DNA of 47,182 nucleotides, taken from assembly GCA_018650465.1 (NCBI GenBank), contig JABIFY010000156.1, positions 1 through 47,182 on the forward strand, given 5' to 3'. The DNA comes from Alphaproteobacteria bacterium. Lineage in GTDB: Bacteria; Pseudomonadota; Alphaproteobacteria; UBA2966. Under the pieces are notes generated by a model. The model was not told the DNA's origin, searched no databases, and worked only from the letters and a program-made list of their open reading frames with translations. The translations under genes and the position numbers were made by a program. Below, piece by piece: positions 20,619 to 35,839 of this stretch. Each line of letters begins with the position of its first letter. The stretch's first letter is position 1.

Positions 20619-21431
20619 ATGACAAACGACCTCAAAGACGTCTCCCGACATTTTGAATTCGGTGAAAACTGGCAGGATTATGCCGCCAGTCTTGACGAAA
20701 CCCATGTTAAACGAGCCATGACAAGCATGGAACGATTGCTGACAAAAGAGGAACTGGCAGACCGGTCCTTTCTTGAAATCGGATCGGGATCGGGTATCCA
20801 CACATTGTCGGCCTTGCGCCTGGGCGCGAAAGAAGTTTACGCGACCGACATCGACCCAAACTCAGTCAAGACAACCTCTTCAGTCTTGCAAAATTTTGCC
20901 CCTGACCAGAACTGGAAAAGCGAAGAAAAAAGCGTTTTTGATCTGGAGACAGAGGGCTTTGATATTGTTTATTCCTGGGGCGTATTGCATCACACCGGTG
21001 ATATGTTCGGCGCGATCGACAAGGCCCTGGACCAGGTTAGCCCTTCCGGCCTGGTGTGTTTGGCGCTCTATCGCAAGACAGCCTTGTGCTGGCTCTGGAA
21101 AATCGAAAAGAAATTTTATACCGGCGCACCAGAAGGTATCCGAAAATTCTTGCGTGGATTGTTTGTTGCCATCTTCCGTGCGGGCTGCATCGCCAAGGGC
21201 ATCAACTTCAAGAACTATGTCGATAATTATCAGTCCGACCGCGGCATGAGTTACTATCACGATATCCACGACTGGATGGGTGGATATCCCTACGAATCAA
21301 TCACACCTGAGGCATTAATCACCTATGTGGAACCCAAAGGTTATTCACTGGTCCGGTCCATCACCCGGCCTGGCGGTATCGGAATTTTTGGTGCCGGTTG
21401 TGATGAGTTTGTTTTCAGAAAAACTTCTTAA
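20619..21431 (+). CDS. Class I SAM-dependent methyltransferase
   Basis: This 270-residue protein has SAM-binding motif I FLEIGSGSGIHTLSALRLG near residue 50 and the acidic post-I loop YATDIDPNSV. VYSWGVLHHTGDMFGAIDKAL is the typical motif IV/V region of small-molecule methyltransferases. I use the ATG at 20619; the same frame has an upstream TTG two codons earlier. Its place in a polysaccharide cluster suggests sugar or precursor methylation, but the acceptor cannot be read from sequence. Its stop overlaps the stop of the convergent dehydrogenase gene. Confidence 0.88.
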   Translation: MTNDLKDVSRHFEFGENWQDYAASLDETHVKRAMTSMERLLTKEELADRSFLEIGSGSGIHTLSALRLGAKEVYATDIDPNSVKTTSSVLQNFAPDQNWKSEEKSVFDLETEGFDIVYSWGVLHHTGDMFGAIDKALDQVSPSGLVCLALYRKTALCWLWKIEKKFYTGAPEGIRKFLRGLFVAIFRAGCIAKGINFKNYVDNYQSDRGMSYYHDIHDWMGGYPYESITPEALITYVEPKGYSLVRSITRPGGIGIFGAGCDEFVFRKTS

Positions 21432-22702
21432 AGCTGCCAGCGGTGATAGCCGTCCGGTAAATCCATCTTGCGCCACATACCTTTGATATCTGCGATCAGA
21501 CCACCAGGGGCGACCATGGCGACAATTTTGTCAGCCGCCATTTGTCGATAATCATCATGGGGAACCGCCCCGATGACGCAGGCATATTTCCCGTCTTCGA
21601 TATCTGAAATCAGGTCGATACCATAATAGGTTTGCGCCTCAGCTGGATCGGCCATGGCATCATGCACATCAACTTCAAGACCACGTGCTTTCAGACCAGC
21701 GACCACATCGACAACCTTGGTGTTGCGTAAATCCGGTACATTTTCCTTGAAGGTCAGGCCCAGCAAAAGTACAGGCCCTTGCAAATCCACCGCCGCCATT
21801 TTGTCCGCAATGGCGTCAGCGACAAATACACCCATGGAGTCATTGATCCGGCGTCCCGCCAGGATAACTTCCGGATTGTGACCGACTTCCTTGGCCCGGT
21901 AGGCCAGATAAAAAGGATCAACGCCAATGCAATGGCCGCCCACAAGGCCAGGCTCAAAGGGCAGGAAATTCCATTTGGTGCGCGCTGCCTCCAACACATC
22001 ATGGGCTGAAATACCCAATTTATGAAAAATGGCTGCAACTTCATTCACAAAGGCGATGTTGATATCGCGCTGGGCGTTTTCTATTACCTTGGCGGCCTCG
22101 GCGGTTTTGATATTGGCGGCGATGAAGGTCCCGGCCGTAATAACAGCGCCATACATATCGGCTAGTTGTTGAGCAATTTCTGGCGTCTGGCCGGCAACAA
22201 CCTTGATGATCTTGTCCACCGTATGCACGGTATCACCGGGATTAATACGTTCCGGACTGTAGCCCAGATAAAAATCCACACCGCATTTCAGGCCGGATAT
22301 TTCTTCCAGGGCAGGTCCACAAATATCTTCAGTGACGCCGGGATAAACCGTACTCTCAAAAACAATGATTGATCCTTTTTTGAGGACCCCGCCCACGGTT
22401 TTGCAGGCCGCCCGCACCGGCGACAAGTCAGGCACATTATCCGCATCAACGGGCGTTGGTACCGTAACGATATAGATATCAAAATCGCGAATGTCACTCG
22501 TTTCAAGGGTCAGGGCAAGGGAGCTGGCCTGCAGCACATCAGCGTTGATTTCGCCTGTGCGGTCCTTGCCGCCGTTAAGTTCCGCAACCCGTTCGGCATT
22601 GACATCAAACCCGGTGACCGGGAACTTGTTTGCCAGAGCAACGGCCAGAGGCAAACCCACATAGCCCAGGCCAATCACAGCGATTTGTGGTGAGTTAGTC
22701 AT
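21428..22702 (-). CDS. Nucleotide-sugar (UDP-HexNAc) 6-dehydrogenase
   Basis: The protein is 424 residues from the ATG at 22702, which has GGAG at good spacing; the frame extends to 22768 without similarity. It has the NAD motif AVIGLGYVGLPLA at the N-terminus, SPERINPGD near 149-157 and the catalytic Cys258 in GGHCIGVDPFYLAY. The SPERINPGD form and overall length fit the TviB/WbpA/WbpO group, which oxidises UDP-GlcNAc or UDP-GalNAc to the uronic acid, better than plain UDP-glucose dehydrogenase. It probably supplies an N-acetylhexosaminuronate that the two AsnB-like enzymes downstream may amidate. It diverges from the regulator across the triple palindrome. Confidence 0.9.
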   Translation of the reverse strand: MTNSPQIAVIGLGYVGLPLAVALANKFPVTGFDVNAERVAELNGGKDRTGEINADVLQASSLALTLETSDIRDFDIYIVTVPTPVDADNVPDLSPVRAACKTVGGVLKKGSIIVFESTVYPGVTEDICGPALEEISGLKCGVDFYLGYSPERINPGDTVHTVDKIIKVVAGQTPEIAQQLADMYGAVITAGTFIAANIKTAEAAKVIENAQRDINIAFVNEVAAIFHKLGISAHDVLEAARTKWNFLPFEPGLVGGHCIGVDPFYLAYRAKEVGHNPEVILAGRRINDSMGVFVADAIADKMAAVDLQGPVLLLGLTFKENVPDLRNTKVVDVVAGLKARGLEVDVHDAMADPAEAQTYYGIDLISDIEDGKYACVIGAVPHDDYRQMAADKIVAMVAPGGLIADIKGMWRKMDLPDGYHRWQL

Positions 22703-22810
22703 TGTGGATATCTCCGTTCCCGGCGCACTTCCAATTCGCGAACTTCTATTTGTGCACTGGCCTTGCAAATCAAGTGAATAGCATCACGTGATATTCAATT
22801 TTTGGCATAT

Positions 22811-22873
22811 GTTCACACTATGAACAAGGCTTGACGTTCACCCTGTGAACGTAATAGTGTTCACACCACGAAC
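22811..22873. promoter_or_regulatory. Three-copy palindromic operator array
   Basis: GTTCACACTATGAAC (22811-22825), GTTCACCCTGTGAAC (22836-22850) and GTTCACACCACGAAC (22859-22873) are 15-base palindromes of form GTTCAC-n3-GTGAAC, with centres 25 and 23 bases apart. A TTGACG at 22831-22836 could be the -35 of a rightward promoter, with TAATAG or TAGTGT as -10, so the sites would straddle it. The array lies between divergent genes and is the natural target of the adjacent winged-helix regulator. Confidence 0.8.
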
Positions 22874-22931
22874 GCAAGATAACCAACCTTTTATCGCCTT
22901 CCCAAACGGGAAGCAAGCCAGGGGACTGTCG

Positions 22932-23597
22932 GTGGCCGATAATTCCACCACATCAGAGCAAAGTGCGGAAGCCGAAAACCGGATTACGCTCGATTTGCTG
23001 AACGCTGTGCATGAAAATGCGCAAGCGTCGCAACGTTCAATGGCCAGTGATCTCGGTATCGCTCTGGGTTTAACCAATGCTTATCTCAAGCGCTGTGTAC
23101 GCAAAGGTTTGGTCAAGGTGGCGCAGGCGCCGGCAAATCGTTATGCCTATTATCTAACGCCCAAGGGATTTTCCGAAAAAAGCCGTCTGACGGCCGGATA
23201 TCTTAAGCGGTCCTTCGATTTTTACCGCCATGCCCGCAGCGAATGTGATGATGGGTTGGCAAATTGTGCGGCCCATAACTGGAACAGAGTTGTCCTGGTT
23301 GGCACTGGTGACTTGGCCGAAATCGCGTTGCTGTGTGCCTTGCAACACGGGGTAACCGTCGTTGGCGTGCTTGATGCCCGATCAACTGGAACGTCTTTTT
23401 TGCATGTGCCCCTGGCGCAGGATATGTCAAATTTCGATGCCGTTGATGCCGCCTTGATCACAGACGTTTCGAAGCCGCAACGAGCGTATTTATCGCTGGG
23501 TGATGCCCTGCCGCGAGATCACATTATCGTGCCGCCTTTATTGGGCTTCGCACCAGAAGAAATTGAGCCATCTGCCATGTGGGGAGATACCTCATGA
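22932..23597 (+). CDS. Winged-helix regulator with Rossmann-like C-terminal domain
   Basis: With the GTG at 22932, preceded by AGGGGAC, the protein has 221 residues. The frame also opens at 22845, but that GTG lies inside an operator copy and lacks a ribosome site. Residues about 16-80 form a MarR-like winged helix (NRITLDLLNAVHENAQASQRSM, SDLGIALGLTNAYLKRCVRKG, YYLTPKG). Residues about 118-200 look like a nucleotide- or CoA-binding Rossmann half (VVLVGTGDLAEIALLCALQHG, VVGVLDA). The layout recalls Rex or the N-terminal domain of PglD acetyltransferases. It is translationally coupled (ATGA) to the NusG-like gene. It probably controls the cluster through the GTTCAC palindromes; the ligand is unknown. 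Confidence 0.8.
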   Translation: MADNSTTSEQSAEAENRITLDLLNAVHENAQASQRSMASDLGIALGLTNAYLKRCVRKGLVKVAQAPANRYAYYLTPKGFSEKSRLTAGYLKRSFDFYRHARSECDDGLANCAAHNWNRVVLVGTGDLAEIALLCALQHGVTVVGVLDARSTGTSFLHVPLAQDMSNFDAVDAALITDVSKPQRAYLSLGDALPRDHIIVPPLLGFAPEEIEPSAMWGDTS

Positions 23598-24097
23598 AAC
23601 GTTGGTATGCCCTTTATACCAAGCCCCGCGAAGAAGTCTGGGCCCGGACCAATCTTGAAGAGCGCGGCCTGGAAGTTTATTTGCCACGCTATCTGAAGCG
23701 CCGTAGTCATGCGCGCAAGGTCGAAATGGTTAAGATGCCTTTGTTTCCGCGCTATATCTTCGCCCGCGCAGATGTCAGCAAGGGTGAACGTCCGGCCATG
23801 GCTTATTCGCCCGGTGTCGAATATGTGCTGAGCTTTGGCAATCAACTGGGCACAGTGAATGATCGCATGATTGAGGAAATTCGTCAGCGAGAAGACGAAA
23901 ATGGCCTTGTGACAATGGGCATGACAGCAAAATTCAAGGCCGGACAACAGGTTCGTGTGGCAGACGGAGCCTTTAGCGATCACGTCGGACTATTTCAGTG
24001 CTCCAGTGATGACGAGCGGGTGTTTGTCTTGTTGAACCTGATGGGCGGATCCGTAAGGGTACACCTGCCCCTGGATTCGATCAGCGCCGAAATCTGA
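23594..24097 (+). CDS. NusG/RfaH-family specialised transcription antiterminator
   Basis: This 167-residue protein begins MKRWYALYTKPREEVWA, the NusG N-terminal (NGN) domain of the RfaH/UpxY subgroup, with LPRYLKRRSHARK and LFPRYIFAR. It ends with a KOW-type domain (GQQVRVADGAFSDHVGLFQ). Such paralogues travel with RNA polymerase on long polysaccharide operons and suppress termination. A GGGGAG precedes the ATG, and the start overlaps the stop of the regulator gene, so the two are made together. No ops-like element was found in the nearby leaders, so the recruitment signal is unknown. Confidence 0.92.
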   Translation: MKRWYALYTKPREEVWARTNLEERGLEVYLPRYLKRRSHARKVEMVKMPLFPRYIFARADVSKGERPAMAYSPGVEYVLSFGNQLGTVNDRMIEEIRQREDENGLVTMGMTAKFKAGQQVRVADGAFSDHVGLFQCSSDDERVFVLLNLMGGSVRVHLPLDSISAEI

Positions 24098-25620: not shown

Positions 25621-26472
25621 ATGGCGCGGAAATATTACGGAATGAATCAGGAAAAACAGGTCGACAAGGCCAAGGTAGATCACTGGGAAACGGTTTGGGG
25701 TGGCATGGACATGCCCGACCCTATGGTCAGTGATGGCCAGGCTGTTCGAGATCATTTGACCCGTTGCTTTGATCGCTTTTTCTCCCGTGTTTTCGACCGC
25801 TTCCTTAAAACTGAAACAAATAAAGCCAACGTAATTGAACTGGGCTGCGGGAGGTCCATTTGGCTGCCGTGGTTTGCCCGCCGCTTTGGTTTGGAAATTG
25901 GCGGTCTGGATTATTCCCAAACCGGTTGCCAACAAGCACAAGCCCTGCTCGCCCGTGACAATATCAGCGGCGATATCCGCGAAGGTGATATATTTGCGCC
26001 GCCATCAGATATGTTGGAACGTTTCGATGTCGTCACATCTTTTGGCCTGGTGGAACATTTTACAGATACGGCTGCCTGCGTCGCCAGTTGTGCTGCCTTC
26101 GCCAAACCAGGCGGTCTGATTGTCAGTGAAATTCCTAATATGTTTGGCCTGAACGGGGCCATCGTCAAAGTGATCAACCGGCGGGTCTATGACATGCACG
26201 TGCCCATGACACGCGAAATGCTGGCGCGAGCGCACCTGGACGCCGGGCTGGAAGTGCTGGACAGTCATTATCTGATGTTTGCCAACCTGAATGTCAGTTT
26301 TCTCGATCAAAAGGCCCCGCGTTTGTTCCAGCTATTGATAAACGGCAGCCTTTACGCCACAACCCGATTGTTCTGGTGGCTGGAAACCATGGGTATTAAA
26401 CTGCCTGCAACTGCCTTTGCATCACCTTATGTGGTAGTGGTTGCCCGGAAACCAGCCGAGGATAAAATCTGA
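25621..26472 (+). CDS. Class I SAM-dependent methyltransferase
   Basis: This 283-residue protein has motif I VIELGCGRSIWLPWFARRFG, the acidic loop GLDYSQTGC, and FDVVTSFGLVEHFTD followed by AAFAKPGGLIVSEIPN. This is the UbiG-like fold used by many sugar or lipid methyltransferases. The second Met at 25642 is an equally likely start; neither has a strong ribosome-binding site. It begins the rightward run of cluster genes, and its stop is one base from the AsnB start, so the two are coupled. Acceptor unknown. Confidence 0.87.
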   Translation: MARKYYGMNQEKQVDKAKVDHWETVWGGMDMPDPMVSDGQAVRDHLTRCFDRFFSRVFDRFLKTETNKANVIELGCGRSIWLPWFARRFGLEIGGLDYSQTGCQQAQALLARDNISGDIREGDIFAPPSDMLERFDVVTSFGLVEHFTDTAACVASCAAFAKPGGLIVSEIPNMFGLNGAIVKVINRRVYDMHVPMTREMLARAHLDAGLEVLDSHYLMFANLNVSFLDQKAPRLFQLLINGSLYATTRLFWWLETMGIKLPATAFASPYVVVVARKPAEDKI

Positions 26473-26473
26473 T

Positions 26474-28402
26474 ATGTGTGGTATTGCCGGGGTTGTTTCC
26501 ATCACGCCTTTTCCCAATGCGCTGGGCATTGAACAAACGCTGCATCGCATGGCCCGTCTGATCGCCCATCGCGGGCCGGATGGCAGTGATATCTGGCACG
26601 ATAGTCATGCCGGCCTTGCCCATACGCGCCTCGCCATCATTGATCTCTCGGAAGCTGGTCGCCAGCCCATGCACGACGTGCAGGGCCACTACGTGCTGAC
26701 GTATAATGGTGAGATCTACAATTATCGCGAACTGCGGGAAGAATTGCGCGCCGCCGGTCATCATTTCCGCACCGAAACAGATTCCGAAGTTATCCTGAAC
26801 GGTTATCGCGAATGGGGTGAAGCGGTTGTAGATCGTTTGCGCGGCATGTTTGCCTTTGCCCTGTGGGACGAGCGCGAAAAGCGTTTGTTTATGGCGCGGG
26901 ATCGCGTCGGTCAAAAGCCCTTGTTTTTTGCCCGCTTCGGTGAAGTCTTTTTATTCGGCTCGGAAATCAAATCCATTTTGACCTGGCCTGGTTTTCCCCG
27001 TAAAGCAAATCTGCAAGCCCTGCATCAATACATGACCTATCAATATGTCATGCCGCCCAACTCAGCATTTGAAGGGGTGGAAGAATTACCTCCTGCGCAT
27101 ACATTGACCGTAATGCCGGACGGGCAGTTTCGTACCCGGCGTTACTGGCAATTGCCGGTACCCGGACAGCCACACAAAGGCGGAACCTTCAATCGCAGCG
27201 ATGCCAAAGAAGAAATCGCTGCTGAACTGGAAGAAGCCGTTCGCATGCGCCTGATTTCAGATGTGCCGTTGGGGGCCTTTTTGTCGGGCGGCATCGACAG
27301 CAGTGTGATCGTGGCCCTGATGGCCAAGCACAGTGCCGGGGCGGTCAAAACCTATTCCATCGGCTTCAATCACGATGAGTTTGACGAACGTCCCTATGCC
27401 CGCGCTGTGGCGGAACGCTATGGTACCGAGCATCATGAATTTGTTGTTGAGCCTGATGCCATGTCTGTGCTGCCCTCGCTTGTCTGGCAGTTTGGTCAGC
27501 CCTTCGGCGATTCGTCTGCCTTGCCAATTTATTATGTTAGCGCCCTGACACGCCAGCATGTGACGGTCGCCCTTAGTGGTGACGGCGGCGATGAAAACTT
27601 TCTCGGCTACAAACGCTATCAAGCCACCAAAGCCGAAGGCATTTACAATCAGGTGCCCGCACCTTTGCGTCAATTATTCTCGGCCCTGATCGGCAAGGGT
27701 GCATCCGGACCCGGTGCGCTTAAATTATTAAGACGACTAACCCGCGACAGTACAAGCAGCGAAAGTGCGCGGTATCTGAAATGGATCGGCATGTTCGATA
27801 CAGGCCAGAAACAGTCCCTTTATGGCCCGGCCCTTGCTCCCTTGTTGCCAGATGATGCAGGTGACTTGCTCGATGGATTATTTGCGGCAGATACTGGTCC
27901 GGCGTCACGTGCCGCCTGGGCCGATATCCATACTTACCTGCCCAACGACTTGCTGGCAAAAGTAGATATCACCTCCATGGCCCATGGCCTTGAGGCCCGC
28001 GCGCCGTTCCTGGATCACAAGTTGATGGAGATGGCCGCCCGCATTCCCGGCAAAGAACATCTCAAGGGTTGGCAACTGAAATCCCTGCTGAAAGACATCG
28101 CCCGGCCATTACTACCTACCGACTTAATCGACCGGCCCAAGATGGGATTTGGTGTGCCGATCAAAAAGTGGTTCCGGGAAGATCTGAAAGATTATCTGGC
28201 CGATCACTTACTCAGTCAAAAAGCCCGCCAGCGCGGCATGATTAATTCAAGTGTTGTGGAGACCATGATCCAGCAACATGTTTCTGGTGAAGCGGAACAT
28301 CATTATCAACTTTGGACCTTGTTGATGATGGAACTGTGGTTCGACATGTGGATTGATGGCGCGGAGTTGCCAACCCGCCCGGCGGTGCCGTCACTTGTTT
28401 AG
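26474..28402 (+). CDS. asnB: Asparagine synthase-like glutamine amidotransferase (first copy)
   Basis: The protein begins MCGIAGVVS, so the N-terminal nucleophile Cys2 of the class II glutaminase is intact; I therefore use the ATG at 26474, not the longer frame from 26441. The glutaminase domain (about 2-210) has LAHTRLAIIDLS and YNGEIYNYRELR. The synthetase domain has the PP-loop PLGAFLSGGIDSSVIVALM and LSGDGGDENFLGYKRY. At 642 residues it fits the AsnB type found in O-antigen clusters, where relatives (WbpS and others) amidate sugar uronic acids. It could also make free asparagine; the cluster context favours sugar amidation. Confidence 0.9.
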   Translation: MCGIAGVVSITPFPNALGIEQTLHRMARLIAHRGPDGSDIWHDSHAGLAHTRLAIIDLSEAGRQPMHDVQGHYVLTYNGEIYNYRELREELRAAGHHFRTETDSEVILNGYREWGEAVVDRLRGMFAFALWDEREKRLFMARDRVGQKPLFFARFGEVFLFGSEIKSILTWPGFPRKANLQALHQYMTYQYVMPPNSAFEGVEELPPAHTLTVMPDGQFRTRRYWQLPVPGQPHKGGTFNRSDAKEEIAAELEEAVRMRLISDVPLGAFLSGGIDSSVIVALMAKHSAGAVKTYSIGFNHDEFDERPYARAVAERYGTEHHEFVVEPDAMSVLPSLVWQFGQPFGDSSALPIYYVSALTRQHVTVALSGDGGDENFLGYKRYQATKAEGIYNQVPAPLRQLFSALIGKGASGPGALKLLRRLTRDSTSSESARYLKWIGMFDTGQKQSLYGPALAPLLPDDAGDLLDGLFAADTGPASRAAWADIHTYLPNDLLAKVDITSMAHGLEARAPFLDHKLMEMAARIPGKEHLKGWQLKSLLKDIARPLLPTDLIDRPKMGFGVPIKKWFREDLKDYLADHLLSQKARQRGMINSSVVETMIQQHVSGEAEHHYQLWTLLMMELWFDMWIDGAELPTRPAVPSLV

Positions 28403-28435
28403 CCAGAAACAAATCTTTAACGAAGAACAAATCTG

Positions 28436-30400
28436 ATGTGCGGGATCACCGGATTTTTTGACCCGGCGCGGGATAGCAGCGATCAAAAGCTGACATCAGT
28501 TGTGACTGGAATGGCTGCGGCAATTGCCCATCGCGGACCGGATGGTCACGGCATCTGGATCGATGAGACGTCCGGCTTTGCCCTTGGCCATCGCCGCCTG
28601 GCGATCATCGATTTGTCGAAAGACGGGGCTCAACCCATGGCCTCTGCCAATGGGCGATATGTCCTGGCTTATAATGGCGAAGTCTATAATTTTGCCGAGT
28701 TGCGCCGGGAACTGGAAACAAAAGGCCACAGCTTTCGCGGCCATTCGGATACCGAAGTTGTACTGGCCGGCATTGTCGAATGGGGTTTTGAAGCCACCAT
28801 TCAGCGCTGTACCGGCATGTTTGCCATTGCCTTGTGGGATCGCGAAACCAGGTCCCTGACCCTTGCCCGAGATCGCCTTGGGATCAAGCCGCTTTATTAT
28901 GGCTGGGTTGGCGGCGTGTTTATGTTTGGCTCAGAGTTATCGGCCCTTGAAGCACACCCTGTTTTTAAACGGGAGATCGATCAAAATGCGCTGGCGCTTT
29001 ATATGGTACGCAATTGCATTCCAGCCCCGCACTCCATTTACAAAGGCGTGCAAAAACTGGTCGCTGGTGCCAGCCTGACCATCGACACAAAAACGGCTGA
29101 GCGAGGTTTCTTGCCGCCTGTTAAAACTTTTTGGTCATTAGCAGACGTGGTCCGCGATGGCATGAACAATCCGTTCACCGGCACGGAAGAACAGGCCACC
29201 GACCAGCTGGAAGAATTGTTGCGCAGTGCCGTCGGTGATCGCATGGTGGCTGACAGGCCCCTGGGTGTTTTTCTGTCGGGCGGGATTGATTCCTCCACCG
29301 TCGCCGCCCTGATGCAATCCCTGAATCCCAACCCGGTAAAAACCTTTTCGATCGGCTTTCATGATGAAGGCTACAACGAAGCCCGTCATGCCAAGGCCGT
29401 CGCCCAGCATCTGGGGACCGACCACACGGAGCTTTATATCGACCCGGCCAAGGCCCTGGAAGTCGTGCCGAAGCTGCCAACACTTTATGATGAACCCTTC
29501 GCCGATTCGTCACAGTTACCAACTTATCTGGTATCCAAAATGGCCCGGCGGGATGTGGTGGTCTGTCTGTCGGGTGACGGTGGTGATGAATTGTTTGGCG
29601 GCTACAACCGCTATATGTGGGTCGACGCCATTGCCCGACGCACAAACAAGTTGCCGCGCGCCTTAACCCAATCCTTAAGTGCGGGACTGACCGCTTTATC
29701 GCCGCAAACCTGGGACCAGATGTTCGACGCCCTGGGACCAATCCTGCCCGGCAAATTGCGGCAACGAAATCCAGGCGACAAGTTACACAAGATGGCGGGT
29801 ATTCTGGCCGCCGGATCGGAAGCGGAAATTTATCGCGGCCTGGTCGGCCATTGGCGGCCTGATGAACAGGTCATGAAAAATGCCTCGCCCGCCACAACCA
29901 TTGTTGAGCAACAGGACCGCTGGCCGGACCTGCCCGACATTACCCAACAGATGATGTATCTTGATGCCGTGACATATATGACCGACGACATCCTGACCAA
30001 AGTTGACCGGGCCAGTATGGCCGTGGGGCTGGAGGCACGCGTACCCCTGATCGATCATCGTGTTGCGGCCTTTGCCTGGACCTTGCCCATGGCCTTCAAA
30101 ACCGGCGGCGGTGTGGGCAAGCGCGTATTGCGAAATGTCCTTTACCGGCACGTGCCGAAAGAATTGATCGAGCGCCCCAAGATGGGTTTTGCCTTGCCCA
30201 TTCACGACTGGTTGCGCGGGCCTTTAAGGGATTGGGCGGAAAATTTGCTGGATGAAAAGCGCCTGGATGAAGGGGGCTATTTCAATGCGGCACCCATTCG
30301 CAAGAAATGGTCCGAACATCTTTCTGGCAAACGCAACTGGCAGCATCATTTGTGGGATGTGCTGATGTTCCAGGCCTGGGCCGAAGGGAAAAACCTTTAG
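28436..30400 (+). CDS. asnB: Asparagine synthase-like glutamine amidotransferase (second copy)
   Basis: A second, distinct AsnB-type enzyme of 654 residues lies 33 bases after the first. It keeps Cys2 (MCGITGFFD), the glutaminase pattern (LGHRRLAIIDLSKDGAQPM, YNGEVYNFAELRREL), the ATP-binding SGGIDSSTVAALM and the LSGDGGDELFGGYNRY block. The two copies are clearly diverged, so this is not a recent duplication. A pair suggests two amidation positions or two different acceptors in the polymer. It is 2 bases from the glycosyltransferase start, indicating one transcript. Confidence 0.9.
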   Translation: MCGITGFFDPARDSSDQKLTSVVTGMAAAIAHRGPDGHGIWIDETSGFALGHRRLAIIDLSKDGAQPMASANGRYVLAYNGEVYNFAELRRELETKGHSFRGHSDTEVVLAGIVEWGFEATIQRCTGMFAIALWDRETRSLTLARDRLGIKPLYYGWVGGVFMFGSELSALEAHPVFKREIDQNALALYMVRNCIPAPHSIYKGVQKLVAGASLTIDTKTAERGFLPPVKTFWSLADVVRDGMNNPFTGTEEQATDQLEELLRSAVGDRMVADRPLGVFLSGGIDSSTVAALMQSLNPNPVKTFSIGFHDEGYNEARHAKAVAQHLGTDHTELYIDPAKALEVVPKLPTLYDEPFADSSQLPTYLVSKMARRDVVVCLSGDGGDELFGGYNRYMWVDAIARRTNKLPRALTQSLSAGLTALSPQTWDQMFDALGPILPGKLRQRNPGDKLHKMAGILAAGSEAEIYRGLVGHWRPDEQVMKNASPATTIVEQQDRWPDLPDITQQMMYLDAVTYMTDDILTKVDRASMAVGLEARVPLIDHRVAAFAWTLPMAFKTGGGVGKRVLRNVLYRHVPKELIERPKMGFALPIHDWLRGPLRDWAENLLDEKRLDEGGYFNAAPIRKKWSEHLSGKRNWQHHLWDVLMFQAWAEGKNL

Positions 30401-30402
30401 CC

Positions 30403-31539
30403 ATGGCACAAGGCAAATCAAAACGTCTACTGTTATTGTTAAACGATGCGCCGTTTTTTATCACCCATCGTTTGTCTGTCGGCATTGCCGCGCGGGCGGC
30501 GGGCTGGGAAGTGCATGTTGCTGTGCCCTTTGAGACGCAAGCCGTTGCCCGTATCAAAGCAGAAGGCCTGATCCACCATGATGTCCCCCTGGCCCGCGGC
30601 GGCACCAATCCCGTCGCAGAACTGAAATTGCTGGCGGCCTACTGGCGGCTAATGGGCGACATCAAACCAGATCTGGTGCATGCGGTGACCATGAAGCCGG
30701 GTGCCTATGGCGGTGCTGTTGCCCGCCTGCGCGGCGTGCCGGCCCTGGTTGTGGCGGTAACTGGTCTCGGGTTTTTGTTTTTGCGCGATACCTTGAAAAC
30801 CAGAATTCTGCGCAAGATTGTGCTGGGACTTTATGGCTTTGGCATGGGTCACAAAAATGCCCGGGCGATCTTTCAGAACCCGGATGATGAAGCCTTGTTC
30901 CGCCAACATAGTCTGATCGGCAATACCCCGGTGCACATGATCAAAGGCTGTGGGGTGGATCTGGAAAGCTTTGCCGTCACGCCGGAGCCTGCGGGCAAAC
31001 CGGTTGTCACCTTTCCGGCCCGCCTGATCGGTGACAAAGGTTTGCATGAATTTATCGACGCCGCAAAACGTTGCAAAGAAAACGGCCTTGAAGCGACCTT
31101 TCGTTTAGTCGGCCGCACCGACGCTGACAACCCAACCGACATTGGCGAAGAAGCCGTGCGCCAATGGGAAGCAAAGGGCCTGATCGAATGGCAAGGGTTT
31201 TCCGGCGACATGCCCGCCGTCTTTCGGGACTGTCACATCGTCTGTCTGCCATCCTATCGGGAAGGCCTGCCGCGTACTCTTATTGAGGCCACCGCCAGCG
31301 GCAGGGCCATTGTCACCACCGACGTGCCAGGTTGTCGAGAAATAGTCCAGCATGACGTAAATGGATTGCTGGTCCCGGCCCGTGACGGTGCCGCCACGGC
31401 AGCTGCTATCACTGACCTGGTCACCCATGCAGGTAAACGCCAGCGCATGGCGAAGAAGGGCCGGGCCATTGCAGAAGCCTCCTTTTCAGTGCAAAAATTC
31501 GTCGCCGATTCCCTTGCCGTTTATAACGAGATCAGTTGA
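30403..31539 (+). CDS. Glycosyltransferase family 4
   Basis: The start ATG at 30403 follows the AsnB stop by 2 bases; the frame opens earlier (30307) inside that gene and is not used. This 378-residue GT-B protein begins RLLLLLNDAPFFITHRLSVGIAARAAGWEVHVAVPF, a pattern I associate with PglA-like HexNAc transferases. The donor-binding C-terminal half includes VCLPSYREGLPRTLIEATASG, with the paired Glu of the EX7E motif, and the later DVPGCREIVQ. It probably adds a sugar to the lipid-linked repeat unit on the cytoplasmic face. It is the only obvious non-initiating glycosyltransferase in the cluster. Confidence 0.9.
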   Translation: MAQGKSKRLLLLLNDAPFFITHRLSVGIAARAAGWEVHVAVPFETQAVARIKAEGLIHHDVPLARGGTNPVAELKLLAAYWRLMGDIKPDLVHAVTMKPGAYGGAVARLRGVPALVVAVTGLGFLFLRDTLKTRILRKIVLGLYGFGMGHKNARAIFQNPDDEALFRQHSLIGNTPVHMIKGCGVDLESFAVTPEPAGKPVVTFPARLIGDKGLHEFIDAAKRCKENGLEATFRLVGRTDADNPTDIGEEAVRQWEAKGLIEWQGFSGDMPAVFRDCHIVCLPSYREGLPRTLIEATASGRAIVTTDVPGCREIVQHDVNGLLVPARDGAATAAAITDLVTHAGKRQRMAKKGRAIAEASFSVQKFVADSLAVYNEIS

Positions 31540-32753
31540 TGCCAACTTACTCCCTCTCCGCGAAAATATTGAGTTTCCTTTGCCTGCTGGTGTTACCGCT
31601 CAGCGTCTATGCCCCCAAGGGCGAAGTAATCCTGTTGGGTCTGACAGGGCTTGGCCTTTTGATCATCGCCGCCCGTGACAAACAATTAGCAAATCTGTTC
31701 CGCAGTCCTCTGGCAATCATTCTGGTGCTGGCATTGTTCTGGTCTGCTGCCAGTACCTTGTGGGCCTTGAATATACGCGATGCCCTCGATACCTGGACGT
31801 CAATCACCTTGTTGTTTGTCGGTATCGTTGTCGCCGCCGGGTCTGCACGTCGTTTGTCGGCCCAAGACCGGGAACAAGTTGGCAAGTGGGCGGTTCGTGG
31901 CTTGTGGCTCGCGCTTTGTTTGCTGGCCATGGAACTGTTCCTGGACATGCCGCTTGCCCGGATTTTCCGAAACTATCCAGGCGGCTTGCCATACCGGCCG
32001 CAAACAATCTTTAACGCCAGTTTGGGCATGGTCGCGATCACCCTTTGGCCCTCGATCATTTGGTTGTGGCAACAACAGAAGAAACTGGCCGCGACTTTGA
32101 CAGTCCTGGCTGCCTTTGTGATTATCTTTCAAGGCGAAGGAGATTCAGCCAAACTGGCCCTGGGCATCACAACCTTGATGTTCTTTTTGACCATGGTGAC
32201 CGGTAAAAACGGTATCAATGTTCTGGCCGCCCTGGTCGTCATCGGCGTCCTGGTGGCCCCCATCCTGCCCCTGAAAGTCATCAGCGAGGCACAGATTGAA
32301 GCAAACTTCCCGGCCCTGAAACATTCCGCCCTGCATCGGATCAAGATTTGGGAGTTCACGGCCACAAACATCACCGACAAACCTTTCACCGGCTGGGGTC
32401 TGGATTCTTCGCGCAACATCCCTGGTGGCAACAACACTATCAAGGGATCGAAAGTCCTGGCAGAAACCTATATGCCGCTGCATCCCCACAATGGTGTTTT
32501 GCAGGTCTGGCTGGAACTGGGCGCACCGGGTGCCGCCTTGATGGCTGCCCTGATTTTGATCTGCCTTTTGGGCTTGCGCAAATTCGGCGCCCTAAACCGG
32601 GCAGGTGCCACGGCTGCACTGGCAGGTGCTTTAACCATTGTTTGCCTGTCCTTTGGGATTTGGCAAAGCTGGTGGATTGCCTCGCTGGGCGTAATGGGCC
32701 TGCTGACAATGCTGCAAACCAGCGATCTGGAGCCGGACACCCAGACCCTTTAG
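31539..32753 (+). CDS. O-antigen polymerase/ligase-like membrane protein (Wzy/WaaL type)
   Basis: This 404-residue polytopic protein has about 10-12 hydrophobic helices and one larger periplasmic loop (about 250-310) with Gly/Ser/Asn-rich text. HSALHRIKIWEFTATNI and FTGWGLDSSRNIPG are followed by PLHPHNGVLQVWLELG; the H.HN...q...E.G pattern is shared by O-antigen ligases and Wzy polymerases. It starts at an ATG overlapping the stop of the glycosyltransferase (TGATG). In a Wzx-type cluster a Wzy role is more likely, but ligase cannot be excluded from sequence. Confidence 0.85.
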   Translation: MPTYSLSAKILSFLCLLVLPLSVYAPKGEVILLGLTGLGLLIIAARDKQLANLFRSPLAIILVLALFWSAASTLWALNIRDALDTWTSITLLFVGIVVAAGSARRLSAQDREQVGKWAVRGLWLALCLLAMELFLDMPLARIFRNYPGGLPYRPQTIFNASLGMVAITLWPSIIWLWQQQKKLAATLTVLAAFVIIFQGEGDSAKLALGITTLMFFLTMVTGKNGINVLAALVVIGVLVAPILPLKVISEAQIEANFPALKHSALHRIKIWEFTATNITDKPFTGWGLDSSRNIPGGNNTIKGSKVLAETYMPLHPHNGVLQVWLELGAPGAALMAALILICLLGLRKFGALNRAGATAALAGALTIVCLSFGIWQSWWIASLGVMGLLTMLQTSDLEPDTQTL

Positions 32754-32800
32754 AAGAGGGTCCTGGTTCCCCTGACTGTCGGTTCCGGCTATAACAAGGC

Positions 32801-33856
32801 ATGTTCGGACAGACCCTTTTATTCACCTTTTTGGCCGCTGCGGTGCTGTCTCTGATTGGCACGCGTCTGGCCCTGACCTGGTTGCGCCGGCGGGCAATCC
32901 TTGACCTGCCCAATGAACGATCCAGCCACACAGTCGCCACACCCCGTGGCGGTGGTATTGGTGTGGTCGCTGCCTTACTGGTCGTTGGCGGTGGCATTAT
33001 TTATGATCAGATGCCAGAAAATGCAGACATGGCCCGGGGTCTGGCGGGCACCCTGTTTCTGGCGGCCTGCCTTGGCATTGTGTCCTGGGCCGATGACCTT
33101 TACACCCTGCCAGCAGCACCCCGGTTTTTGGCACAGATCATGGCTGTGGCCGCGGGTATCGCCTTGTTACCACAAGATACACCTGTCTTTCAGGACCTGT
33201 TACCCGCCTGGGTAGATCACCTGGTGGCCGGTATCGCCTGGCTCTGGTTCATTAATTTGACAAATTTCATGGATGGCACCGATGGTATTACGGCGCTGGA
33301 AACCGGCAGCGTCGGTGCAGGCCTCGCCATCATATTTGGCCTGGTTCTCGGCAATTCGGACTATGCCCCCCTGGCCCTTGTTGGTGCCGCCCTGGCGGGT
33401 GTCAGCCTCGGGTTTTTTGCCTGGAACCGGCCACCTGCCAGTGTCTTTATGGGGGATGTGGGTGCCATCCCGCTCGGGTTCATCATGGGCTGGGTGCTGC
33501 TGGTCTCAGCCTCGCAAGGCTTTTTGGCGGTTGGCTTGATCCTGCCACTTTATTATACGGCAGATGCGACGGTCACTTTGTTCAAGCGGCTGTTTCGCGG
33601 TGAGAAAATCTGGCAGGCCCATCGCAGTCATTTTTATCAACAAGCTGTTCAAGCCCTTGAAGGGGTCGATGGGGTGCGGCGCACCAAAGCCCACCGCCAT
33701 ATTTTGATCATGATCTTGCTTTGCAATATTGTCCTGATTGATCTGGCGGCGACCCTGGCAGCCCTTCCGGCACAAACAATCTTGCTGAGCGTGATCGCAG
33801 CAGTGGTAGTTATGGCTTTGTTGTGGTATTTGGCCACAAGAAAATTCAAATCATGA
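32801..33856 (+). CDS. WecA/MraY-like undecaprenyl-phosphate glycosyl-1-phosphate transferase
   Basis: This 351-residue membrane protein has about 10 helices. It shows LPNERSSHTVATPRGGGIG, ADDLYTLPAAPRFLAQ with the catalytic Asp pair region, and NLTNFMDGTDGIT, the NFMDG motif of the polyprenyl-phosphate HexNAc-1-phosphate transferase family. It probably starts each repeat unit by moving a HexNAc-1-phosphate onto undecaprenyl phosphate. AAGG lies before the ATG. It is followed by the CapD-like dehydratase, a frequent partner that makes the initiating nucleotide sugar. Confidence 0.93.
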   Translation: MFGQTLLFTFLAAAVLSLIGTRLALTWLRRRAILDLPNERSSHTVATPRGGGIGVVAALLVVGGGIIYDQMPENADMARGLAGTLFLAACLGIVSWADDLYTLPAAPRFLAQIMAVAAGIALLPQDTPVFQDLLPAWVDHLVAGIAWLWFINLTNFMDGTDGITALETGSVGAGLAIIFGLVLGNSDYAPLALVGAALAGVSLGFFAWNRPPASVFMGDVGAIPLGFIMGWVLLVSASQGFLAVGLILPLYYTADATVTLFKRLFRGEKIWQAHRSHFYQQAVQALEGVDGVRRTKAHRHILIMILLCNIVLIDLAATLAALPAQTILLSVIAAVVVMALLWYLATRKFKS

Positions 33857-33892
33857 TGGCTGTTTCATGACCTGTGACCCGGAGTCTTATCT

Positions 33893-35839
33893 TTGCTGCT
33901 GAACCGGCGCATTGCAATTGTGGCCCTGCACGACATTTTTATGGCGGCCCTGTCGTTCGAGGTGTCGGTGCTGGTGCGCTATTACACCTATGGCGCCCCA
34001 CAGTCGCCAGGCTTTTTGTGGCCGGCAACCGTTGTCTTTACCACTGTCTGTTTCATTGCCTTCTGGCGTGCCGGGCTATATCGCGGCATCTGGTATTATG
34101 CCTCGTTCAATGATCTGGTGGCCATCGTCAAGGCGGTTACCCTGTCGATCCTGGTGTTCCTGGCCATCATGTTTGTCGCCACTCGCTTGCAGGATTTCCC
34201 GCGCACAGCGTTGCTGATCAACTGGCCCTTATTGATATTCCTGTTGGCCGGGCCACGTTTTTTGTATCGCGCCTTAAAAGATGGTAACTGGCGTGCAGCC
34301 TTCGAACGCAACGCCGACACGCGCATTCCAGTTCTGTTGCTGGGGGCAGGCGACGAAGCCGAGATGTTCATTCGCGATCAGTCTCGCGGCCGCAACGCCA
34401 ACTACCGGGTTGTTGGCATTGTGGATGACAAACCCAATCGCGTTGGCCGTGATATTCGAGGCGTCCGTGTGATGGCGACGATTGCCGAACTTGAACAGGT
34501 GATCAAGACTCTTGATAAAAAGGGTCAGCGCCCACAACGTCTGATCATCGCCAGTGAACGCATCGCAGGTCCGATAGTGCGCGACTTACTGGACAAGGCC
34601 GAGGCCTGGGGCCTGACCCTGGCGCGAGTGCCTAAATTGACCGACTTTGCTGACAGTAATGACGGTGCCGCCAGACCCCGACTACTTGATACAGACGGGC
34701 AATTGCAGGCCATCGATATTGCTGATTTGCTGGGCCGCCCCCGCAAGGTGCTGGATCGCGACGCCATGGCACGGCTGATCGCCGACAAACGGGTTTTGGT
34801 TACAGGGGCCGGTGGCACGATTGGATCGGAACTTGTGCGCCAGATCGCCGGCTTTGGTCCCGCCCACATGACCTTGCTGGATAACGGCGAATACAATCTT
34901 TATCGCATTGATATGGAGATGTCGGAAAAACAAGCCGATGTCCCGCGCGAAGCTGTGCTGGGCGATGTGCGCGATACCGCCCGATTGAATCAGGTCTTTG
35001 CCACGGATCGCCCCGATATCGTTTTTCACGCTGCGGCCTTCAAACATGTGCCCCTGAACGAGCGCAATCCCAACGAAGCCGCTCTTACCAATTGCCTTGG
35101 TACTTATAATGTGGCGGAAGCCTGTCGGGTGCACGAGGTCGGTACCATGGTGCAGATTTCCACCGACAAGGCCGTGAACCCGACCAATGTCATGGGCGCC
35201 ACCAAACGCATCGCCGAGATGGTTTGCCAAAGCCTGAACCTGGCCCGCACCAGCCCAAGCGACACACGATATGTCACCGTGCGGTTTGGCAATGTGCTGG
35301 GCTCCACCGGATCAGTCGTGCCGTTGTTTCAACGCCAATTGGCGGCAGGTGGACCTTTGACCGTCACTCATCCGGAAATTACGCGCTATTTCATGACGAC
35401 CGGCGAGGCTGTTGAGTTGGTTTTGCAAGCCAGTGCCATTCCGGAAGAAGACGCCGCAGACGCTAGCTCGCATGGCAACAAGGGTGAAGTCTTTGTGTTG
35501 GATATGGGTGAGCCTGTACGCATTCAGGACCTGGCGCGCCAGATGATCCGCTTGTCCGGCCTGCAGCCGGACAAAGATATTGCTGTTGAATTTTCCGGCC
35601 TTAGGCCCGGCGAAAAATTATATGAAGAGCTGTTTCATGATGCCGAACAGCTGGTGCAAACCGGCCACGAAGGTATCATGCTGGCCGCACCGCGAACCAT
35701 CTCATACGACGACCTGAAGTCTTTGCTGGATCAACTGAACGAGTCCGCTTCGGCCCGCCAGACAGACAAGACCCTGCAACTCATCAAAACTTTTGTCCCC
35801 GAATTTGAAAGTGATCTGATCAAGTCAAATTCTGAATAG
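33893..35839 (+). CDS. CapD/WbpM/FlaA1-like nucleotide-sugar 4,6-dehydratase
   Basis: This 648-residue protein starts at TTG, supported by GGAG nine bases upstream. The N-terminal part has about four membrane helices (15-125), then a first Rossmann-like section ([17 protein letters not shown]). The catalytic SDR domain begins [17 protein letters not shown] near residue 300. The active-site region reads [17 protein letters not shown], with Met in place of the usual Tyr, as is normal for the WbpM/PglF group. It makes UDP-4-keto-6-deoxy-HexNAc, the precursor of QuiNAc, FucNAc or bacillosamine. It is the last gene of the cluster, 26 bases before purH. Confidence 0.93.

Follow-up and report, generated by a model that had tools for sequence, protein, structure and literature searches.

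A putative autorepressed operon joining a MarR_EPS-like regulator to an RfaH-like NusG paralogue at an alphaproteobacterial polysaccharide locus

Complete transcription of long polysaccharide operons depends on RfaH-type factors. To our knowledge, the control of the supply of such factors has been little studied outside Enterobacteria, and we know of no co-transcription of the E. coli rfaH gene with a repressor. Regulators of the Rex type consist of a winged helix followed by a Rossmann-type domain. The ops-contacting residues of RfaH are K10, H20, R23 and R73, and ops9, GCGGTAGTC, is the ops DNA that was seen with RfaH in the crystal (PMC5995543). In Bacteroides, the role described for UpxZ is interference with heterologous upx operons rather than repression through an operator (PMC7593976).

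The window, i.e. the whole stretch of DNA that was analysed, comprises 47,182 nucleotides of an alphaproteobacterial contig (JABIFY010000156.1). The features of the locus are as follows (operators were not assigned to a strand).

21428-22714, minus strand: divergent nucleotide-sugar dehydrogenase (TviB-like), sharing its intergenic region with the operators
22811-22825: upstream operator GTTCACACTATGAAC, one mismatch to GTTCAC-n3-GTGAAC, 25 bp 5' of the spacer operator
22831-22836, plus strand: -35 element TTGACG
22836-22850: core operator GTTCACCCTGTGAAC in the -35/-10 spacer, a perfect GTTCAC-n3-GTGAAC
22855-22860, plus strand: -10 element TAGTGT, after an 18-bp spacer
22859-22873: second operator GTTCACACCACGAAC over the -10 and likely start site, two mismatches, 23 bp from the core operator
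22932-23597, plus strand: regulator with a winged helix (MarR_EPS-like) and a Rossmann-like domain, 221 residues, GTG start
22977-23246, plus strand: winged-helix DNA-binding part and following helix of the regulator, residues 16-105, matched by TIGR04176 and PF13412
23265-23582, plus strand: C-terminal Rossmann-like putative sensor domain of the regulator, from profile-profile matches
23594-24097, plus strand: NusG paralogue (RfaH-like), 4-nt ATGA overlap with the regulator
25621-35839, plus strand: long run of polysaccharide genes (methyltransferase, two asparagine-synthase-like, glycosyltransferases, CapD-like)

The neighbours of the regulator (nucleotide-sugar dehydrogenase, flippase-like, glycosyltransferases and CapD-like) identify an exopolysaccharide locus. 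Two tandem asparagine-synthase-like amidotransferases within the run (26441-28402 and 28436-30400) match an XrtA/PEP-CTERM-type profile below its cut-off.

The N-terminal half of the regulator is matched by PF13412 (HTH_24) with E 2.9e-9, and TIGR04176 (MarR_EPS) matches the protein with 66.3 bits and E 2.1e-18 (68.1 bits in a scan of its own genome), both scores being below the curated cut-off of 88 bits. The TIGR04176 match covers the N-terminal 90 residues in all 21 of the regulator members scanned. A preliminary description, made from the letters alone, had called this part MarR-like, and the profiles agree with it. The same description had placed a Rossmann-like domain in the C-terminal half. 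Single-sequence matches of this half are weak (NeuD N-terminal, CoA-binding and dehydrogenase domains), PDB sequence searches with the regulator gave marginal matches only, and no PglD_N domain was found in the genome to which the window belongs. Profile-profile comparison brought out N-terminal domains of the CapD/WcaJ type at 86% (P 5e-6) and NeuD at 56% (P 1e-4), with reversed, column-shuffled and unrelated controls at about 1% or lower; the alignment spans about 50-55 columns, i.e. the first beta-alpha-beta unit of the sugar-enzyme domains. The predicted order of secondary structure, E-H-E-E-H-E-E, comes with a model confidence of only 44; AlphaFold models built from a two-sequence input were unreliable (pLDDT of 42 for the whole regulator and 44 for the C-terminal domain). 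The profile matches with their clean controls give indirect support to a Rossmann-like domain of the kind present in nucleotide-sugar enzymes, although structure prediction gave no reliable fold. The glycine motif of this domain is GxG[DE]LAE, in which only the first glycine is invariant and the third glycine of GxGxxG is glutamate in nearly all members, which makes a classical dinucleotide site unlikely. NADH is not favoured as a ligand, because of this glutamate and because the nearest profiles are those of sugar-enzyme N-terminal domains.

All three of the GTTCAC-n3-GTGAAC palindromes reported previously are present upstream of the regulator, but only the middle copy is perfect. The likely promoter around which they had been placed is also there: a sigma70-type sequence TTGACG-N18-TAGTGT is embedded among the three, with one palindrome upstream of it, one in its spacer and one over the -10 and start. 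The number of palindromes in the whole window, three found and 1.62 expected for the two-mismatch pattern, is within chance, yet we consider them real because they are packed within 63 bp (22811-22873), because GTTCAYNNNRTGAAC is matched in the whole 4.8-Mb genome only by the two best copies, and because orthologues preserve their position and spacing. One-mismatch operators number 46 per strand in the genome of the window versus 12 in the reversed control, and among those listed there is no operator pair elsewhere. When further operator-controlled promoters were sought across this genome, the operator was found at the regulator locus only. The regulator leader (22874-22931) and the leader of L003 also contain a short inverted repeat, CTTCCC-n4-GGGAAG, common to the two species of the genus.

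The regulator was found in 24 of the 61 related genomes searched, mostly as full-length matches with 89 to about 35% identity. The search for palindromes upstream of orthologues, which had been suggested as a check, recovered the pair in 18 of 22 distinct genomes, nearly always spaced by 22-24 bp and after a TTGAC -35 element, while three of the remaining orthologues have a single palindrome and one has none. An operator 24-25 bp upstream, as in the window, is present also at loci L057, L039, L041, L051 and L052. A search of 385 alphaproteobacterial genomes with a DNA pattern only (TTGACGTTCAYNNNRTGAAC, TTGAC and the palindrome), using no protein reference, gave 33 sites in 27 genomes and none with the reversed pattern. 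Directly downstream of 26 of these 33 sites lies a full-length regulator homologue, and one further site, located where a contig ends, has the same sequence as a regulator-promoter site, which brings the regulator promoters to 27. The six other sites head different genes, mostly recognisable polysaccharide genes, including NAD-dependent epimerases/dehydratases, ABC transporters and a nucleotidyltransferase-like protein (named by eye). At nearly every site the core operator lies within the 18-bp spacer, and the -10 element TAnnnT is conserved at its three fixed bases in 29, 29 and 26 of the 33 sites; unlike TTGAC, it was not part of the search pattern. Two contigs of a viral collection (L078 and L079, IMG/VR) contain the beginning of the regulator gene behind paired operators and the promoter; its reading frame ends after about 69 residues in L078 and runs to the contig edge in L079.

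Regulator promoters and structural promoters form two classes. A second operator accompanies 25 of the 27 regulator promoters and none of the six structural ones (Fisher P 2.5e-5), and the RfaH recruitment core GCGGTAGC is present 71-131 nt downstream in five of the six structural promoters versus 0 of 26 regulator promoters (P 3e-5), where both P values overstate the strength because some of the genomes are related and the counts are not fully independent. The expected background of this core is about 0.015 per 180-nt leader, and its first seven bases (GCGGTAG) are the start of ops9. In a second search, an operator followed within 20-80 nt by GGCGGTAG was found in three genomes and in none of the control. 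Ten operator-bearing or ops-bearing genomes were examined; the regulator is present in all ten and an RfaH-like protein in nine, the exception being an incomplete assembly. Neither JUMPstart nor any other Rfam leader was found between positions 21000 and 36000 of the window or in those ops-bearing loci that were searched. In another genome (G002:C1:2709305, locus L126) the ops core precedes a nonulosonate-type operon whose promoter region has a different palindrome, CTATCGCGTGCGATAG, and at that operon the corresponding role may fall to another repressor.

The NusG paralogue is matched over its full length by the RfaH profile TIGR01955 with 117.9 bits, below the cut-off of 144.5 bits. The ATGA shared by the two frames (22932-23597 and 23594-24097) bears out the translational coupling that had been proposed. 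In the alignment with E. coli RfaH, K10 is kept while H20, R23, Q24 and R73 are not; the paralogue of the window has W16, N20, E23, R24, S72 and P73, and its family is of the same type. Where the genome bears ops, the RfaH-like protein retains Q24 and T72 and in most cases has R23 or a lysine in its place. The sole operator-controlled leader that lacks the ops core is that of G293, whose paralogue is of the window type. This correlation of residue type with the ops core, drawn from a small set, predicts that the factor of the window uses a different recruitment sequence. The genome G002, of the same family as the window and with the ops core mentioned above, is a possible exception to the correlation. 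The ops core was not found in the leaders of the polysaccharide cluster of the window, and neither ops core nor operator was found in the leader of the run at 25621-35839. In the whole genome KGCGGTAGCNTG has three matches, fewer than in the reversed control; the single leader-like match, on contig 112, was discarded because it falls within a reading frame whose start resembles a signal sequence. Recruitment through ops is thus not borne out in the genome of the window, as the core was not found in the cluster leaders and the contact residues are altered. The nearest candidate targets are the polysaccharide run, for the NusG paralogue, and the divergent nucleotide-sugar dehydrogenase.

We consider it probable that the locus is an autorepressed, ligand-responsive regulator operon which co-makes an RfaH-type factor for polysaccharide operons. 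A dimeric winged-helix repressor would occupy the sites in the spacer, over the -10 and start, and upstream, and so block RNA polymerase at its own promoter. The sequence itself shows the operators, their overlap with the promoter, the conservation, the overlap of the two genes, the two classes of promoter and the ops cores of relatives. Binding by the adjacent regulator is suggested because the DNA-only operator search recovers its gene, and repression because of the operator position. The Rossmann-like domain probably senses a polysaccharide precursor or a related nucleotide metabolite and thereby alters the affinity for DNA; a ligand of this kind is indicated by the relationship of the domain and by the context. 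Release of the promoter would give more of the repressor and, through translational coupling, the NusG paralogue, which would join RNA polymerase as it transcribes polysaccharide operons and take it through to the operon end, antitermination being expected from the family of this protein. It appears that the repressor controls its own promoter through conserved paired sites across many Alphaproteobacteria.

The competing readings concern both the protein and the promoter. The regulator could be an autorepressor only, with the Rossmann-like half as a ligand-free dimerisation or structural domain and with negative feedback simply keeping the NusG paralogue at a constant level. The GxGxxG glycines are indeed not kept, the matches to nucleotide-binding families are weak when taken one by one, and standalone MarR_EPS proteins manage with the DNA part without any C-terminal domain; however, G13, E19, Q72, P90 and L93 (domain numbering) are conserved across wide divergence, beyond the needs of a spacer, and the domain resembles those of sugar-nucleotide enzymes, and we regard this reading as rather unlikely. 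That the protein is a genuine Rex, sensing the NAD(H) redox state and acting on polysaccharide genes, seems to us very improbable: the order of winged helix and Rossmann-like domain is the same and the strand order is similar by eye, but the protein of the window has no Rex or CoA_binding Pfam match at E up to 1, CoA_binding matches one of 21 members at E 0.1, the winged helix is MarR_EPS-like and the dinucleotide motif is not kept. By the sequence tests applied, the Rex-like plan suggested at the outset holds for the domain order and not for the family.

On the side of the promoter, the regulator might activate by binding and untwisting the 18-bp spacer in the manner of MerR rather than repress. 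The position of the core operator in an over-long spacer at nearly every site would fit DNA distortion too, but at regulator promoters the second operator covers the -10 and start and would hinder the polymerase, and the DNA-binding domain is MarR/HTH_24-like with marginal MerR profile matches (best E 0.014), which leaves activation improbable. The NusG paralogue, finally, could be an unrelated passenger beside the regulator, as two of 22 orthologues have no adjoining paralogue and the Chelatococcus homologues are followed by a GDP-mannose dehydratase. We give this almost no credence, since in 20 of 22 genomes the paralogue is the next gene, with frames that overlap (mostly by 4 nt) or nearly so, and since operator-bearing polysaccharide leaders contain the RfaH recruitment core.

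The autorepressed, ligand-responsive operon remains our preferred reading, and it bears on the proposal that initiation and elongation of polysaccharide transcription are jointly controlled. Operators on polysaccharide promoters with ops-core leaders in relatives suggest that one signal would set initiation there directly and elongation through the RfaH-like factor. Structural promoters with operator and ops core, together with the overlap or adjacency of regulator and NusG genes, support linked control at the level of the module, which seems to control how polysaccharide transcription begins and whether it is completed. This part of the proposal does not extend to the genome of the window, where direct control of polysaccharide promoters is not supported, no further operator having been found. 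There the regulator, whose operator was seen at no other operon than its own, would influence polysaccharide genes by way of how much elongation factor is supplied. More tentatively, the module may be class-wide, a sugar-nucleotide-sensing repressor setting initiation via GTTCA..TGAAC and a co-made RfaH-type factor setting elongation from an ops core in the same leaders, the lineage of the window having a changed DNA-reading surface and a new recruitment sequence; we hold this possible, at somewhat less than even chances. An operator-repressor pair tied to an RfaH-type factor and to the ops-bearing operons of relatives offers a testable circuit of initiation and elongation. By sequence evidence, ops-type elements are extended to Alphaproteobacteria, a candidate DNA site is proposed for the annotated but unstudied MarR_EPS family, and RfaH-like proteins become available for comparison as natural sets that have or lack the ops-reading residues.

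Related arrangements occur elsewhere. Standalone MarR_EPS regulators on Rhodobacterales plasmids (L180-L191 and L030-L033, from Sulfitobacter, Roseivivax, Loktanella, Pacificitalea, Aestuarium and Limimaricola) show a similar pattern: of 16 leaders, 14 contain GTTCA-n4-TGAAC and 13 a GTGCGGTAGC-type ops core about 25-40 nt before the start codon, and in two cases the gene beside them is annotated as NusG-family or RfaH. The ops-like GTGCGGTAGCC elements are those of these 13 leaders; a description of such ops-like and palindrome leaders was not found in the open-licence literature. In Chelatococcus, the fused regulator and two operators head a GDP-fucose operon with no adjoining NusG paralogue.

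Compared with described systems, the regulator shares with MarR_EPS (TIGR04176) the N-terminal 90 residues and the polysaccharide setting, but that family consists of proteins of about 105 residues with no further domain, whereas the protein of the window has 221 residues with a Rossmann-like domain of about 100. The palindrome of standalone members is nearly the same, with a centre of 4 nt instead of the 5 nt here, and an ops core is often present as well. E. coli RfaH with ops/JUMPstart (PMC5995543, PMC2864571) is likewise a NusG paralogue, and leaders of the relatives contain the same ops core, but the paralogue of the window lacks H20, R23, Q24 and R73, and the alphaproteobacterial leaders fall short of the Rfam JUMPstart threshold. 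As with Bacteroides UpxY/UpxZ (PMC7593976), the polysaccharide locus encodes both a NusG paralogue and a partner regulator, the partner here being a winged-helix protein with promoter operators. From Rex the regulator differs in DNA-binding family, in the lack of a dinucleotide motif, in targets and in operator. In the open-licence literature, with most subscription journals outside its scope, we found no description of the regulator, its operator, the rfaH-regulator operon, the ops link or the fused sensor-type domain. The domains that align to the C-terminal half stand at the N-termini of CapD/WbpM-type dehydratases, WcaJ-type transferases and NeuD/PglD acetyltransferases, where they are fused to enzymes, while in the regulator the domain is fused to a DNA-binding domain. 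The parts are of known kinds, an autoregulated repressor and an RfaH-type factor, and it is their arrangement that is new relative to the literature searched.
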